From NCBI GenBank assembly GCA_000171875.1, contig ABHI01000001.1, forward strand, positions 186,001-250,000: a stretch of DNA of 64,000 nucleotides. The letters are read 5' to 3'. Position 1 is the first letter of the stretch; every line of letters starts with the position of its first letter. The position numbers were made by a program, and so were the translations under genes. Below, one piece after another: positions 10,472 through 47,139 of the stretch. The notes below the pieces were generated by a model. That model did no database searches and had not been told where the DNA came from. It saw nothing but the letters and a program-made list of their open reading frames with translations. The stretch is from Flavobacteriales bacterium ALC-1 (lineage in GTDB: Bacteria > Bacteroidota > Bacteroidia > Flavobacteriales > Flavobacteriaceae).

Positions 10472-13084
10472 TTAAAGATAATTTTTAGCAGCCTTCAAAG
10501 CGGCATCAATACCAGCAGGGTTTTTTCCGCCAGCTGTAGCAAAAAATGGTTGACCTCCACCTCCACCTTGGATGTGTTTACCTAACTCTCTAACTATAGT
10601 ACCAGCATTTAAATCTTTACTAGCAACTAACTCTTTTGAAATATAACAAGATAGAATCGCCTTTCCATTATTTTCAGATCCAAATAATAAGAACAGGTTT
10701 TTAAATTGACTTCCTAACTCAAAGGATACATCCTTTATACCTCCAGCATCTAAATCTAACTTCTTAGCTAAAAACTGAACCCCATTAATTTCAGTCAACT
10801 CATTTTTAAGTTCACCTTTAATGTTCTTCGCTTTATCTTTTAATAAATTTTCAATCTGCTTCTTTAAATCTGTATTTTCATCTTGCAGATTCTGTAATGC
10901 TTTAAGGGGTTCTTTAGCGTTGTTGAGTAAATCCTTCATTTCAAAATACACTCTGTTATTTTCAAAATAAAAGTCCTTTACTGCATCATTAGTTATGGCT
11001 TCAATACGACGAATACCTGAAGCTACCGCACTTTCAGAAGTAATCTTAAAATGCCATATGTCCGCCGTATTATTGACATGAGTACCTCCGCAAAGTTCTA
11101 TAGATTGTCCAAATCGAATTGTACGAACATTATCACCATATTTTTCACCAAAGAGCGACATTGCACCATCAGCAATGGCTTGTTCTTTTGGCACGCTTCT
11201 GTTTTCTTCTAAAGGTAATTTACCTTCAATACGAGAATTTACAAAATTTTCTACATCACGTAATTCTTCTAGAGTAAGTTTAGAGAAATGTGAAAAGTCA
11301 AAACGTAAGTGTTTAGAATGAACCGCAGACCCTTTTTGCTCTACATGGTCCCCTAAAACTTCTCTTAATGCCTGATGCAATAAATGCGTAGCAGTATGAT
11401 TACACTCTGTTCTATATCGCTGCTTAATGTCTACTACGGCTTTTAAAACCTCATCGCTATGCTTCGGTAAATTCTTAGTAAAATGGATAATAAGATTATT
11501 TTCCTTTTTGGTATCTAAAATATAAACCACATCTCCATGTTCATCTTCTAAATAACCCTTATCACCGACTTGTCCACCGCCTTCAGGATAAAATGGTGTT
11601 ATATTAAATACCAGCTGATACATTTCACCATCTTTTTTAGAGGTTACTTTTCTATATCGTGTTATTTTCACGTGCGCTTCAAGCGTATCGTAACCGATAA
11701 ATTCTTCTACTTCATCATGATGCAAAATGGTCCAATCATCCGATTTTAACTCTGATGCTTCTCGTCCACGATCTTGTTGCGCTTTAAGAGATGTTTTAAA
11801 CTCTTCTGCATTATAAGTATAACCTTTCTCTCTAAGGATAAGGTCTGTTAAATCTTCAGGAAAACCATACGTATCTTTAAGTTCAAATACTTTAGACCCA
11901 GAAATTTCTTTTGTTTTAGAAGTCTTAACAATTCCATCTAAAAGAACTAGACCCTGCTCTAAGGTTCTCAAAAATGAACTCTCTTCTTCTTTAATAACAT
12001 TTTCAATTAATTGTTTTTGAGCCTTTAACTCAGGAAATGCTTTTCCCATTTTCTTACTCAAAATGTTAACTAATCGATAGATAAAAGGTTCTTTTTTATC
12101 TAAAAACGTAAACCCGTATCGTACAGCACGACGTAAAATTCTACGAATTACATAACCTGCACCATTATTACTTGGTAACTGACCATCTGCTATAGAAAAT
12201 GCTACTGCTCTTACATGGTCAGAAATTACACGAATTGCTACATCAACCTTCTCATCTTTGCCATAATCTTTATGAGTTATGGCTTCAATTTCGCGGATAA
12301 TTGGTGTAAAAACATCCGTATCGTAATTAGATTGTACTCCTTGTAACACCATACATAGACGTTCAAAGCCCATTCCTGTATCAATATGCTTATTTGGTAA
12401 AGTTTCTAAAGACTTATTTGCTTTACGATTGTATTGCATAAACACGAGGTTCCAAATTTCTACAACCTGTGGATGATCCATATTTACTAAAGACTTTCCA
12501 TCTACCTTGCTTTTTTCTTCCTCAGAACGAATATCTACATGGATCTCACTACATGGCCCACAAGGGCCTTGGTCTCCCATTTCCCAGAAGTTATCCTTTT
12601 TATTTCCCATAAGGATACGATCTTCTGGGATGAACTCTTTCCAAAGGTCGTATGCTTCTTGATCCATTTTTAAATTATCGGCATCGTTGCTACCTTCAAA
12701 AACAGTAACGTACAGCATATCTTTATCGATACCATAAACTTCCGTCAACAATTCCCAAGCCCAAGCAATAGCTTCTTTTTTAAAGTAATCTCCAAAAGAC
12801 CAATTACCCAACATTTCAAAAAGCGTATGATGATACGTATCATAACCTACTTCTTCTAAATCATTATGCTTACCTGAAACGCGAAGACATTTTTGACTAT
12901 CTGCAATCCTATTTTTCTTAGGATCTGCATTACCTAAAAAATACTCTTTAAAAGGAGCCATACCAGAGTTAACAAACATTAAGGTAGGGTCATCTTTTAA
13001 TACCATAGGAGCAGAAGGCACAATGAGGTGTTGCTTTCCTTCAAAGAAATTTAAAAATTTAGAACGAATTTCTTGAGATTTCAT
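10472..13084 (-). CDS. alaS: Alanyl-tRNA synthetase
   Basis: 870 residues, full length. Class II catalytic core at the N-terminus ([36 protein letters not shown]), then the editing domain with zinc ligands [11 protein letters not shown] and CGGTHVNNT, a coiled-coil segment (about 720-760), and the C-Ala domain ending [19 protein letters not shown]. Charges tRNA-Ala and clears mischarged Ser/Gly. Divergent from the M23 peptidase gene. Confidence 0.97.
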
Positions 13085-36726: not shown

Positions 36727-36780
36727 GTATAAAAAAATAAAGGTCTGAGGATTAATCCTCAGACCTTTATTTTTTTATAC
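36727..36780. terminator. Bidirectional terminator; 54-bp perfect palindrome
   Basis: Fully self-complementary over 54 bases (27-base arms, no spacer; centre ATTAAT). Arms contain AAAGGTCTGAGGATT / AATCCTCAGACCTTT with A-run and T-run flanks, so it terminates both the OmpP1 gene and the convergent 2052-residue gene. Confidence 0.9.
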
Positions 36781-44328: not shown

Positions 44329-45810
44329 ATGCCTTTATACGATAGTCAACATATAAAAATATACAATACACTTTCTGGTGAAAAGGAACTTTTTGTACCT
44401 ATTACAGAGGGTCATGTTGGCATGTATGTTTGCGGACCAACGGTTTACAGCAATGTGCATTTAGGTAATGTGAGAACTTTTATGTCCTTTGACATGATTT
44501 TTCGCTACTTTAATCATTTAGGTTATAAAGTCCGTTACGTGCGTAACATTACAGACGCAGGGCATTTAGAAAATGACGATGATGTTGGTGAAGATAAGAT
44601 TACTAAAAAAGCAAGATTAGAAGCCATAGAACCTATGGAAATTGTACAGCGCTACACAGTCGATTTTCATAATGTATTAAACACGTTTAATTTCTTACCA
44701 CCAAGTATAGAACCTACTGCAACTGGTCATATTATTGAGCAAATTGAATTGATTGAATCTATTATAGATAAAGGGTTTGCCTATGTTGTAAATGGTTCGG
44801 TTTATTTTGATGTTCACAAATACAACGAATCTAATGCATATGGTATTTTAAGTAAGCGTAAGCTTGAAGACTTAATTCACAATACAAGAACACTTGATGG
44901 GCAAAGTGACAAAAAGAATCCTCAAGATTTTGCACTTTGGAAAAAAGCTGAACCTGCACATATTATGCGTTGGCCATCTCCTTGGAGTGATGGTTTTCCT
45001 GGATGGCATTTAGAATGTACAGCAATGAGCACTAAATATCTAGGTGAGTATTTTGATATTCACGGTGGTGGAATGGATTTAAAATTCCCGCATCACGAAT
45101 GTGAGATTGCCCAAAACCAAGCTGCTAAAGGACAAGATCCTGTTAAATACTGGATGCATGCAAATATGCTTGAACTGAATGGTGCTCGCATGAGTAAATC
45201 ATCAGGTAATTATATTAATCCTGCTGAATTATTATCTGGCAACAACGATAAAATGTCTAAAGGCTATAACCCAATGGTTATCCGTTTCTTTATGATGCAA
45301 GCATCTTACAAAAGTGTTTTAGACTTAACCGATGCTGGCTTAAAAGCTGCTGAAAAAGGATTTAATAGATTAATGGATGCTATCAATCTAATTGATAATT
45401 TAAAAACTAGTGATTCATCATCATTTGATATTTCTGTTTGGAAACAGAAATGCTATGATGCCATGAATGATGACTTTAACACTCCAATATTAATAGCTCA
45501 CCTTTTTGATGCTGCAAAATTTATCAATCAGATAAAGGATGGGAGTGCTACAGTGACTTCAGAAGATTTAGATTTCCTAAAACAAACTATAGAAACATTT
45601 ACTTTCGATATTTTAGGACTGACTAATGTTTCTAAAGACGATTCTAACACAGATAAATTGACTGGGGCTGTTGAAATTTTAATTAACCTTAGAAAAGAAG
45701 CTAGATTAAATAAAGATTTTGCTTTATCAGATAAAATTAGAGATGAATTGGCTGAAGCTGGTATTCAACTTAATGATAGTAGAGACGGCACAACTTTTAC
45801 GACTAATTAA
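44329..45810 (+). CDS. cysS: Cysteinyl-tRNA synthetase
   Basis: 493 residues. Start at the ATG 44329 ([20 protein letters not shown]). Class I motifs are clear: [15 protein letters not shown] (HIGH-like) and ARMSKSSGN (KMSKS). Zinc site Cys/His segments (CGP near 33; [14 protein letters not shown]) are present. Charges tRNA-Cys. yidD starts 2 bases after the stop, so co-transcribed. Confidence 0.96.
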
Positions 45811-45812
45811 TC

Positions 45813-46049
45813 GTGAAAAAAATCTTAACATACCCTTTTTTGTTTCTTATTAAGATTTATCAAACTCTTATTTCTCCAATTACTCCAGCAACTTGTAGAT
45901 ACCAACCCACTTGTTCTCACTATGCAAAAGAAGCATTAGAAGTTCATGGTTTTTTTAAAGGTGGAAAGCTAGCAATTAAACGTATTTTTAGTTGTCATCC
46001 TTTTGGCGGTAAAGGTTTTGACCCTGTCCCTAAGAAGGATGACAACTAA
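45813..46049 (+). CDS. yidD: Membrane protein insertion efficiency factor YidD, rebuilt 3' end
   Basis: 78 residues from a GTG start at 45813, which fits the family N-terminus. Core YidD pattern: amphipathic helix ([32 protein letters not shown]) and [14 protein letters not shown]. The last residues (KKDDN) are encoded by an 18-bp inverted copy of the segment encoding FSCHP, so this end looks rebuilt. A second, diverged copy of the tail sits downstream (46109-46167). Confidence 0.9.
45986..46043. repeat. 18-bp perfect inverted repeat inside yidD
   Basis: TTTTTAGTTGTCATCCTT (about 45986-46003) and its reverse complement AAGGATGACAACTAAAAA (to about 46052) flank the last part of yidD, so the 3' end can fold into a long hairpin. 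The second arm runs past the stop. Confidence 0.85.
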
Positions 46050-46059
46050 AAAATTGCCC

Positions 46060-46167
46060 TCGCACGCAAGCTCGCCCATTCACTAAAAATGTACACTGTA
46101 CATTTTCTTAACGCTCTGTCGTCTTTTGGTGGAAAAGGTTTTGACCCAGTTCTACCAAAAGAAGAGT
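46060..46167 (+). repeat. REP-like element and duplicated yidD tail
   Basis: 46060-46113 holds a dispersed-repeat-like stretch (CTCGCACGCAAGCTCGCCC, then AAAATGTACACTGTACATTTT, 10-base arms around one base, then TTAACGCTCTGTCG). It is followed by [15 protein letters not shown]-type coding sequence ending in TAA at about 46167, which matches the yidD tail with third-base differences. Not translated with yidD. Confidence 0.65.
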
Positions 46168-46308
46168 AATACCATTTCTCATTCAAAATTATTGCTAAAA
46201 AAGCCCTTTTCTTTCACAACAATTTTAAACAAGAACTGGTATAATATTACGTTAATCTCATTTTCAATCCCTTTCAAAATATTATATTTACCACTCAATT
46301 ATATACCT

Positions 46309-47139
46309 ATGCATTTATTACAAATAAATTGGGATCCTACTAAAGGAATAGATTTAGGATTTTTTACGCTTCACTTTTATAGTATGATGTGGATTATAGC
46401 CTTTATTATAGGTTTCTATATTACCAAACGTATCTATAGAAATGAAGGGCAATCCGATGAATCTCTTGACTCACTATTTATCTATTCTGTATTAGGAATA
46501 ATGCTTGGTGCACGTTTAGGACATGTTATATTTTACCAGTCTGAATTAATTACCGATGATTTCTTCAGTATCTTTTTACCTTTTAAGTTTAAAGGTGGTT
46601 TTGAGTTTACAGGTTTTCAAGGTTTAGCCAGTCATGGTGCTGCAATTGCCATGATTATTTCTATGTACATCTACAATAAAAAAGTATTACATAAAACGGT
46701 ACTTTGGATTCTAGATCGTGTCGTAATTCCAGTTGCACTTGGTGCTGTATTTGTAAGAATCGGAAATTTTATTAATTCTGAAATTATTGGAAAATATACC
46801 AATAGTGATTTTGGTGTTATTTTTAAACAATTAGGGGAAACAGAGCCGAGACATCCTGCTCAATTATATGAAGCAATCTGTTATGTTTTTGTCTTTATCA
46901 TATTATTTTATTTCTATTGGAAAACTAAAAAATCTGAGCAACAAGGTTTCCTTTTTGGGTTATTTTTAGTTTTACTATGGACAGTTAGGTTCTTTGTGGA
47001 ATATTATAAAGTCAGTCAAGGTGGTATTGAAGAATACTTTGGAAACAGCTTATCTACTGGTCAGCTCTTAAGTATTCCATTTATATTAATTGGTTTATAC
47101 TTTATGTTTGTTTATAAACCAAAAACTAAATCAGCTTAA
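46309..47139 (+). CDS. lgt: Prolipoprotein diacylglyceryl transferase
   Basis: 276 residues, inner membrane enzyme that adds diacylglycerol to lipobox Cys. Seven membrane helices are suggested by hydrophobic blocks. Lgt signature GAVFVRIGNFINSEIIGK (about 145-162) and RHPAQLYEA, plus HGAAIA. I use the ATG at 46309 (MHLLQINWDPTKGIDLGFF); a longer frame runs from 46126 through the yidD remnant and is not the start. Overlaps the next gene by one base (TAATG). Confidence 0.95.
   Translation: MHLLQINWDPTKGIDLGFFTLHFYSMMWIIAFIIGFYITKRIYRNEGQSDESLDSLFIYSVLGIMLGARLGHVIFYQSELITDDFFSIFLPFKFKGGFEFTGFQGLASHGAAIAMIISMYIYNKKVLHKTVLWILDRVVIPVALGAVFVRIGNFINSEIIGKYTNSDFGVIFKQLGETEPRHPAQLYEAICYVFVFIILFYFYWKTKKSEQQGFLFGLFLVLLWTVRFFVEYYKVSQGGIEEYFGNSLSTGQLLSIPFILIGLYFMFVYKPKTKSA

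Follow-up and report, generated by a model that had tools for sequence, protein, structure and literature searches.

The window analysed here is a stretch of 64,000 nucleotides from Flavobacteriales bacterium ALC-1, and the genome to which it belongs is of Winogradskyella type. On its forward strand lies yidD (45813 to 46049; Pfam YidD match, PF01809), followed on the same strand by lgt (PF01790; 46309 to 47139), for which we adopted the ATG at 46309, by likeness to relatives, and not the mechanically called TTG at 46126. The gene on the other side of yidD from lgt is, judging from its sequence, presumably cysS. The yidD gene has a rebuilt C-terminus. Comparison of inverted repeats and pair counts identified a coding segment around the residues S-C-H-P (U, 45985 to 46002, forward strand) that is the perfect reverse complement, over 18 nt, of a second arm 32 nt further on (U', 46035 to 46052, forward strand). 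This second arm encodes the final yidD codons, K-D-D-N, and a new stop codon at 46047-46049. Repeat comparison further revealed that the yidD tail is duplicated, with 89% identity over 28 nt (46000-46027 and 46123-46150). The first copy (D1, 46001 to 46030, forward strand) now serves as the working end of the gene, and the second (D2, 46124 to 46169, forward strand), recognized also from the tail of a relative, is the displaced old end, out of the yidD frame and still readable to its stop. The space between U' and D2 is occupied by the core of an element that we call R (46062 to 46123, forward strand), which scores 85.7 bits against a covariance model (R1) and contains a perfect 21-nt palindrome at 46086-46106 as its hairpin. 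Together, positions 46001 to 46123 of the forward strand form one complete D-U'-R repeat unit of 123 nt, in keeping with the spacing of 121-123 nt between tandem units in four genomes (G004, G027, G016, G349).

An initial annotation of this DNA had described the last codons of yidD as the inverted complement of the gene's own upstream sequence, with the inverted arm supplying a new stop; in the window both statements are borne out. It had also placed a second tail 60 bases downstream, behind a palindrome; the tail copy and the palindrome are there, but the copy starts 74 nt past the new stop. Among 60 first-order Markov versions of the window, none contained a perfect inverted repeat of at least 18 nt with a gap of at most 100 nt, of which the real window has two; those of at least 14 nt occurred at a mean of 0.05 per version. 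The stretch from U through D to U' has a folding energy of -31.8 kcal/mol. The other inverted repeat of the window is a perfect 54-nt palindrome at 36727-36780, located between convergent genes; judged by position, it is an ordinary two-way terminator.

We examined the same locus in 68 genomes of the genus, 64 of which yielded a yidD gene. The 64 yidD ends fall into two forms, being either short (DPVPPKED-stop or similar, with lgt close by) or extended (DPVPxKDDN-stop, with an insert). The insert consensus was found at 29 loci in 27 of these 64 genomes, two genomes carrying it on two contigs. At four loci (L026, L040, L045, L053) two or three units stand in tandem, Winogradskyella aurantia being a species with three, and three draft assemblies (G017, G025, G028) have contigs broken inside the insert. 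A typical unit measures 121-123 nt. It starts with D, about 30 nt copied from the yidD tail of the species concerned, continues with the arm U', which complements the sequence around the U|D junction, and closes with R, which borders directly on the following D at its 3' end. In general form the design is U[D U' R]nD, with U|D standing for the original end of the gene and R for a hairpin element of about 62-75 nt. The nearest relative, W. echinorum (L317), has a single yidD tail, and the sequence past its stop resembles, by eye, the sequence past the second tail of the window; this single tail and similar downstream sequence show the old yidD end of the window to be displaced rather than newly made. 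The distance to lgt agrees with an insertion as well: in species free of the unit a fixed lgt motif mostly lies 131 nt past the yidD stop (183 nt in the nearest relative), as compared to 325 nt in the window.

We also searched 397 genomes of the family for the pattern of the yidD stem (TGTCATCC…GGATGACAACT). Matches were obtained in 22 genomes, representing 19 of 237 genera, and the reversed-pattern control gave none. Of the 22 matches, 21 were confirmed as yidD, the exception being the locus in G266. R is decayed or partial at L229, L237 and L242, the contig stops within three further loci (L239, L240, L248), and L228 is masked; all remaining loci show the arm, R and a second tail. One locus from another genus (L196) carries three tandem yidD units. 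In some other genera (L238, L239, L241 and L242) a stop codon precedes the arm, and therefore the supply of a stop by the arm is incidental to the design. Separately, the yidD locus L345 carries an R of a general subtype (CAGCTGGCC, with a GTCCGG end) that is unlike the yidD subtype; its arm is decayed and it has no second tail.

An alignment of 55 yidD loci (A2) revealed that the arm changes along with its target. Pairing is intact in 92.9% of the stem cells. The pair formed by columns 6 and 71, just outside the AGTTGTC motif, is paired in 54 of 55 rows, with seven double changes and the pair types UA, GC, AU and CG; the sole row that breaks the covarying column is L241. For each of three measures (paired cells, cells with a double change, and the covariation score) none of 500 shuffles scored as high, and two others were unexceptional, namely the number of covarying pairs (four; 120 of 500 shuffles as high) and the number of pair types (ten further types; 142 of 500). 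The alignment was assembled largely by pattern: 47 of the 55 rows were gathered with a pattern that demands the inner arm, and two antisense duplicates were removed; the constancy of the inner pairs thus in part reflects how rows were chosen. Six outer target letters and the last four arm letters were left free, and eight rows that the pattern had missed, mostly pair-breaking, were added to avoid biasing the count (L281, L290, L299, L300, L316, L342, L345, L351). In L238, L239, L241 and L242 the arm is non-coding and yet still complementary over AGTTGTCATCC, which argues that the arm tracks its target for reasons other than the encoded protein. The arm may be kept matched by a fresh copy made at each insertion, by correction through template switching or by selection on the stem.

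The R element itself was modelled from 20 copies (alignment A1). It begins at about GGCCAANGCGCC, continues into a covarying hairpin with a 9-bp stem, in which six of the nine pairs have undergone double changes, and ends in CGCTCnGTC(C) directly against D; the flanks of the stem are conserved. With this covariance model, R was detected in at least 49 of 68 genomes of the genus (E 0.01), at least 133 of 299 of the family and at least 18 of 295 of the class, 16 of these outside the family (both at E 0.0001), all counts being lower bounds in that the best 79 or the best 18 candidates per genome were scored. R is accordingly dispersed in the family and rarer in the class. Among the candidates scored, no genome of the genus had more than 12 copies. 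When 150 candidates were scored in each of eight genomes, the copy numbers were 3 (ALC-1), 10, 55 (G088), 11, 14, 14, 13 and 11. Nine copies from G088 that were read (L206-L214) are near-identical, which suggests that R has multiplied in that genome. The copies read sit between further small hairpins within a longer repeat of about 190-260 bp, which apparently multiplied recently; among the copies read, L213 differs from the others on its left side.

Searches of Rfam 15 gave no match for R at gathering score (in 11 sources, the window included, the matches were tRNAs alone), and the 25 matches up to E 10 at 45700-46400 all lie far below that score; on this basis R was rejected as a known structured RNA. 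The insert had no blastn match in a plasmid collection. An integron attC site was also considered, and its core-site consensus did not fit by eye.

Most copies lie between genes: in a set of 90 R copies with flanks, 81 are outside any open reading frame of at least 100 amino acids, and 14 are within about 200 nt of a tRNA gene. Other sites in the genus include positions before tRNA-Pro and tRNA-Arg genes, beside MIKFFRK genes and inside terminator-like hairpins, as well as one beside what we take to be a TPP-riboswitch-like sequence and one between genes that we take to be ftsA and ftsZ. In seven loci R ends at most one base from the first base of tRNA-Pro (L109, L111, L112, L114, L130, L131, L184), and in three at most one base from the first base of tRNA-Arg (L111, L133, L141). 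At six loci (L110, L126, L132, L135, L136, L139) it lies at the start of MIKFFRKIR-type genes with a partial second gene start opposite, a doubling for which tandem paralogues could be an alternative source.

Most R copies elsewhere lack the U-D-U'-R-D design, which is found at yidD, tRNA-Phe, tRNA-Leu and L257. At the tRNA-Phe gene of L259, from another family, three units are spaced 141 bp apart, each consisting of the tRNA 3' end with its terminator, an arm (GGCGGAATCGAAC) that complements the T-arm at the junction, and R. A tRNA-Leu gene (L191/L202) and the locus L257 have the same design. The arms measure 13 nt at tRNA-Phe, 8 nt at tRNA-Leu and 10 nt at L257, as compared to a null with a median of 5 nt, a 99% level of 7 nt and a maximum of 9 nt. 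Beside tRNA-Gln, L173 has an apparent second unit with a 12-nt arm, by reading alone. The lengths of the target duplications range from about 12 to 85 nt across sites.

We then considered how general the duplication is. An earlier test of 47 R copies had indicated that flank duplication is not general and occurs mostly at one gene type. In the present set it exceeds the 99% level of the null in 27 of 93 copies, yidD included, and does not in 66, with a null that is long-tailed (99.9% level of 170), probably because some loci overlap. Of 17 duplicated rows outside yidD, an arm longer than the 99% level is present in 3 and no clear arm in 14, a count that retains one row (L259@1658) scored as armless in which the wrong, R-preceded copy was compared. 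Rows from the CRISPR-like array have none above that level (0 of 7). That array (L195; G245:C8:153000-166500) contains several R copies at about 880-2360 and 10850-11650; it has a 36-nt repeat with 17 matches within three mismatches, about 70 nt apart where regular. At the R copies read there, the next CRISPR-like repeat is without its first bases, and R may be invading CRISPR repeats.

Direct reading of the junctions indicates what is constant among these sites. At unrelated targets, the junction between arm and R, wherever an arm exists, falls at nearly one and the same left end of R (about GGCC), and the junction between R and D falls at a constant right end (GTC or GTCC). R thus behaves as a defined unit, which would not be expected of random template switching. 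The initial annotation had offered a template switch or a REP-like insertion as the event that displaced the old gene end. A snap-back template switch acting purely locally at yidD could by itself have made the inverted arm and the duplicated tail, with no mobile element involved; U' is the exact reverse complement of U over 18 nt and covaries with it, as a template-switch product would, and perfect stems are known to arise and to be maintained through template switching (as described in the portion of PMC8794818 available to us). We nevertheless consider this very improbable. R, between the arm and the second tail, matches copies at tRNA genes, at the CRISPR-like array and at numerous further sites. 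Moreover, the stem is found again in 19 genera, and at unrelated targets the arm joins R at nearly the same left end. A purely local switch is insufficient because R, which it leaves unaccounted for, occurs at many other loci; the template switch and the REP-like insertion each describe one half of the footprint. A palindromic, REP-like element has indeed displaced the old gene end, but not as a private event of this genome, with 27 of 64 loci in the genus having the insert.

A different possibility is that D1 and D2 represent the attL/attR scar of an element moved by a tyrosine recombinase. The 3' ends of tRNA genes are classical sites of such recombinases, tRNA 3' ends are duplicated at L259, L191 and L173, and exact restoration of the site would be expected on loss. 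However, the units, at 121-141 bp, contain no gene, and the presence of R and of tandem arrays at unrelated targets would require several recombinase specificities. We regard this as the least probable of the explanations weighed here.

We constructed a quick tree (LG+G4) from cysS, the yidD core and lgt for 80 named loci and the window. R is present at yidD in 33 of the 81 loci and absent in 48, including close sisters, with L305 set as present by hand (its contig ends inside the unit) and decayed remnants (L333, L334, L336, L355) scored as absent. The distribution needs 20 changes of state, at least 17 of them forced by starred branches, and the two nearest relatives of the window, in a clade of three rows, are without R at yidD. 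The initial annotation had named relatives with the same two tails as evidence against its reading. Two tails are indeed shared by relatives, in 27 of 64 loci of the genus and in other genera, so that this objection holds in part; yet the arrangement is not stable, since its presence changes 20 times on the tree. Within genomes, D1 agrees with D2 at a mean of 26.1 of 30 positions, as compared to 25.1 between D1 and the three nearest relatives; the internal agreement is the closer in 18 of 28 genomes, the less close in nine and equal in one. In five of the 28 the two copies are identical (30/30), though D2 no longer codes. These values refer to 28 last units; R-bearing loci at which the contig breaks off within the unit or shortly beyond it gave no D2.

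At the largest host distances units are still about 76% identical, with the next 90 bp at the level of shuffled sequence (0.50 versus 0.53). The distances between units correlate with those between hosts (Mantel r 0.46, p 0.001), and part of the pattern is therefore vertical. The closest unit to that of the window, 94% identical, belongs to a species (L277) more distant than the nearest carrier (L298). In L300 the second tail, and not the first, matches the R-less close sister L293 (28 versus 24 of 30), which fits either an exact loss in L293 or the arrival of a foreign unit in L300. As read from these sequences, vertical descent, recurrent loss, re-expansion and some transfer appear to fit best in combination.

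These observations also bear on a possible role of the unit as a functional structure in RNA or DNA (a terminator, processing signal or regulatory hairpin) maintained by selection between yidD and lgt and inherited vertically with losses. Such a structure would account for the covarying stem, for conservation of the unit beyond that of neighbouring intergenic DNA and for the partly vertical signal. It sits poorly with absence from 48 of 81 loci, close sisters included, with tandem copies, with a coding overlap that varies and with the presence of R in unrelated contexts, and we consider it unlikely.

We searched for an enzyme that could mobilise R. A Y1 profile had no match in 9 of 15 R-bearing genomes, ALC-1 and the 55-copy G088 among them; the alignment of this profile to TnpA-REP proteins is only partial, and some of them may escape it (according to the available part of PMC6006769). 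A RAYT protein search at E 1e-10 gave matches in 7 of 68 genomes of the genus and none in the other 61, ALC-1 included, and no R was found in 12 Y1 loci. By these searches ALC-1 has no REPtron, that is, no cognate RAYT flanked by the repeat. A RAYT or Y1 protein as resident mobiliser was rejected, with no match in ALC-1 and no R in the 12 Y1 loci. A reverse transcriptase domain (PF00078) is encoded in 4 of 14 genomes, twice in the R-richest, G088; being absent from ALC-1 and from 10 of the 14 in all, a reverse transcriptase or group II intron derivative was rejected as well. The Y1, RAYT and PF00078 searches thus yielded no mobilising enzyme for R; one that was active earlier, or that is encoded on a different replicon, may have been responsible.

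The same results weigh on the suggestion that a RAYT/TnpA-REP (HUH Y1) transposase mobilises R, which would then represent a new group of REPs. R is a short intergenic palindrome with conserved unpaired flanks and up to 55 copies in one genome, and CGTC REPs have been reported from Bacteroidetes, likewise without a dedicated transposase (in the available text of PMC3733652). On the other side, the tag of R is neither GTAG nor CGTC, no Y1 match was found in 9 of 15 R-bearing genomes, RAYT matches were confined to 7 of 68 genomes that do not include ALC-1, and the 12 Y1 loci contained no R; we find this origin unlikely too.

Comparison with described systems places R near several of them. It shares with the GTAG/CGTC REPs (Di Nocera 2013, PMC3733652, as far as available) a short, mostly intergenic, dispersed non-coding palindrome with a conserved unpaired end. 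R is longer than these REPs (62-75 nt) and ends in GTC(C), the 20-copy alignment ending in CGCTCnGTC(C), or GGAC when reversed, with no conserved GTAG or CGTC by the stem; the letters of its stem vary and the flanks are conserved, and at some sites it brings a target duplication and an inverted target copy. The main text of that paper, in the version available to us, nowhere uses the word stem 'duplicat'. REPs usually number more than 100 copies per genome (PMC2817692, in its available portion). Like MITEs and minisatellite MITEs such as BrickBuilt of Porphyromonas gingivalis (PMC4596501, from the part available), R is non-autonomous, intergenic, tandem and found in Bacteroidota. BrickBuilt has an internal 23-nt repeat unit and its own inverted-repeat ends, whereas in the R unit the end of the target gene is itself part of what is repeated, and the inverted repeat is formed with the target. 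R has neither terminal inverted repeats of its own nor a fixed-length target duplication, and the arms at its sites, where present, derive from the target and differ between sites. R thus resembles REPs and MITEs as a short dispersed palindrome and departs from the former in its tag and from the latter in lacking inverted ends of its own.

Template-switch mutations, as presented in the accessible part of PMC8794818, are like U' in placing a reverse-complement copy by its source and in perfect stems kept by paired changes; the R design differs in that it returns at the same sites across many genera and is in every case linked to R. The ends and guides of IS200/IS605 elements (PMC8266576 and PMC6006769, in the text available) also combine a hairpin with neighbouring bases that match the target. 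Their guides are tetranucleotides, whereas the R arm is 8-18 nt long and spans the junction, and no Y1 was found in ALC-1. The literature searched, from which most subscription papers were out of reach, contained no description of R or its footprint.

Together, the compared loci show that a site U|D became U-D-U'-R-D, that units stand in tandem and that the state of the site changes often. The best explanation appears to be a REP/MITE-like element with an unusual insertion footprint, and positions 46001-46123 are probably a single unit of a mobile hairpin element of Bacteroidia that is dispersed, non-coding and non-autonomous and whose preferred site is the 3' end of yidD. Such an insertion may begin with one-ended attachment, in which R would be joined through its 3' end to the target, broken between U and D. 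Copying could then run from the free end of U along D and snap back over the junction, generating U', which would be joined to the left end of R, so that a single event would yield D, U' and R in the observed order. That the arm extends no more than a few bases into U would be explained by a short snap-back. Recombination between D copies would then either multiply units, giving tandem arrays, or delete them exactly, giving clean losses in which the old gene end is restored. Re-insertion or template switching may keep the stem matched to a changing target, and some units may travel between species with the yidD-lgt segment. A further proposal, that R elements form a mobile DNA class of their own, strikes us as speculative and rather doubtful; in this view U' can be written at insertion and serves as a target-specific guide for re-insertion of the same lineage at the same site (yidD or one tRNA) in new hosts, with D permitting exact reversal.

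The double yidD tail of ALC-1 is, on this comparison, one case of a recurrent element that is often at the same spot in related bacteria, and the recurrent unit explains both the odd yidD ends and the contig breaks at this locus. A short hairpin element would thus have rewritten, time and again, the 3' ends of a conserved gene and of some tRNA genes, with a working copy left in place. The dozens of species with filled and empty sites constitute natural replicates for hairpin insertion, array expansion and the matching of arm to target.
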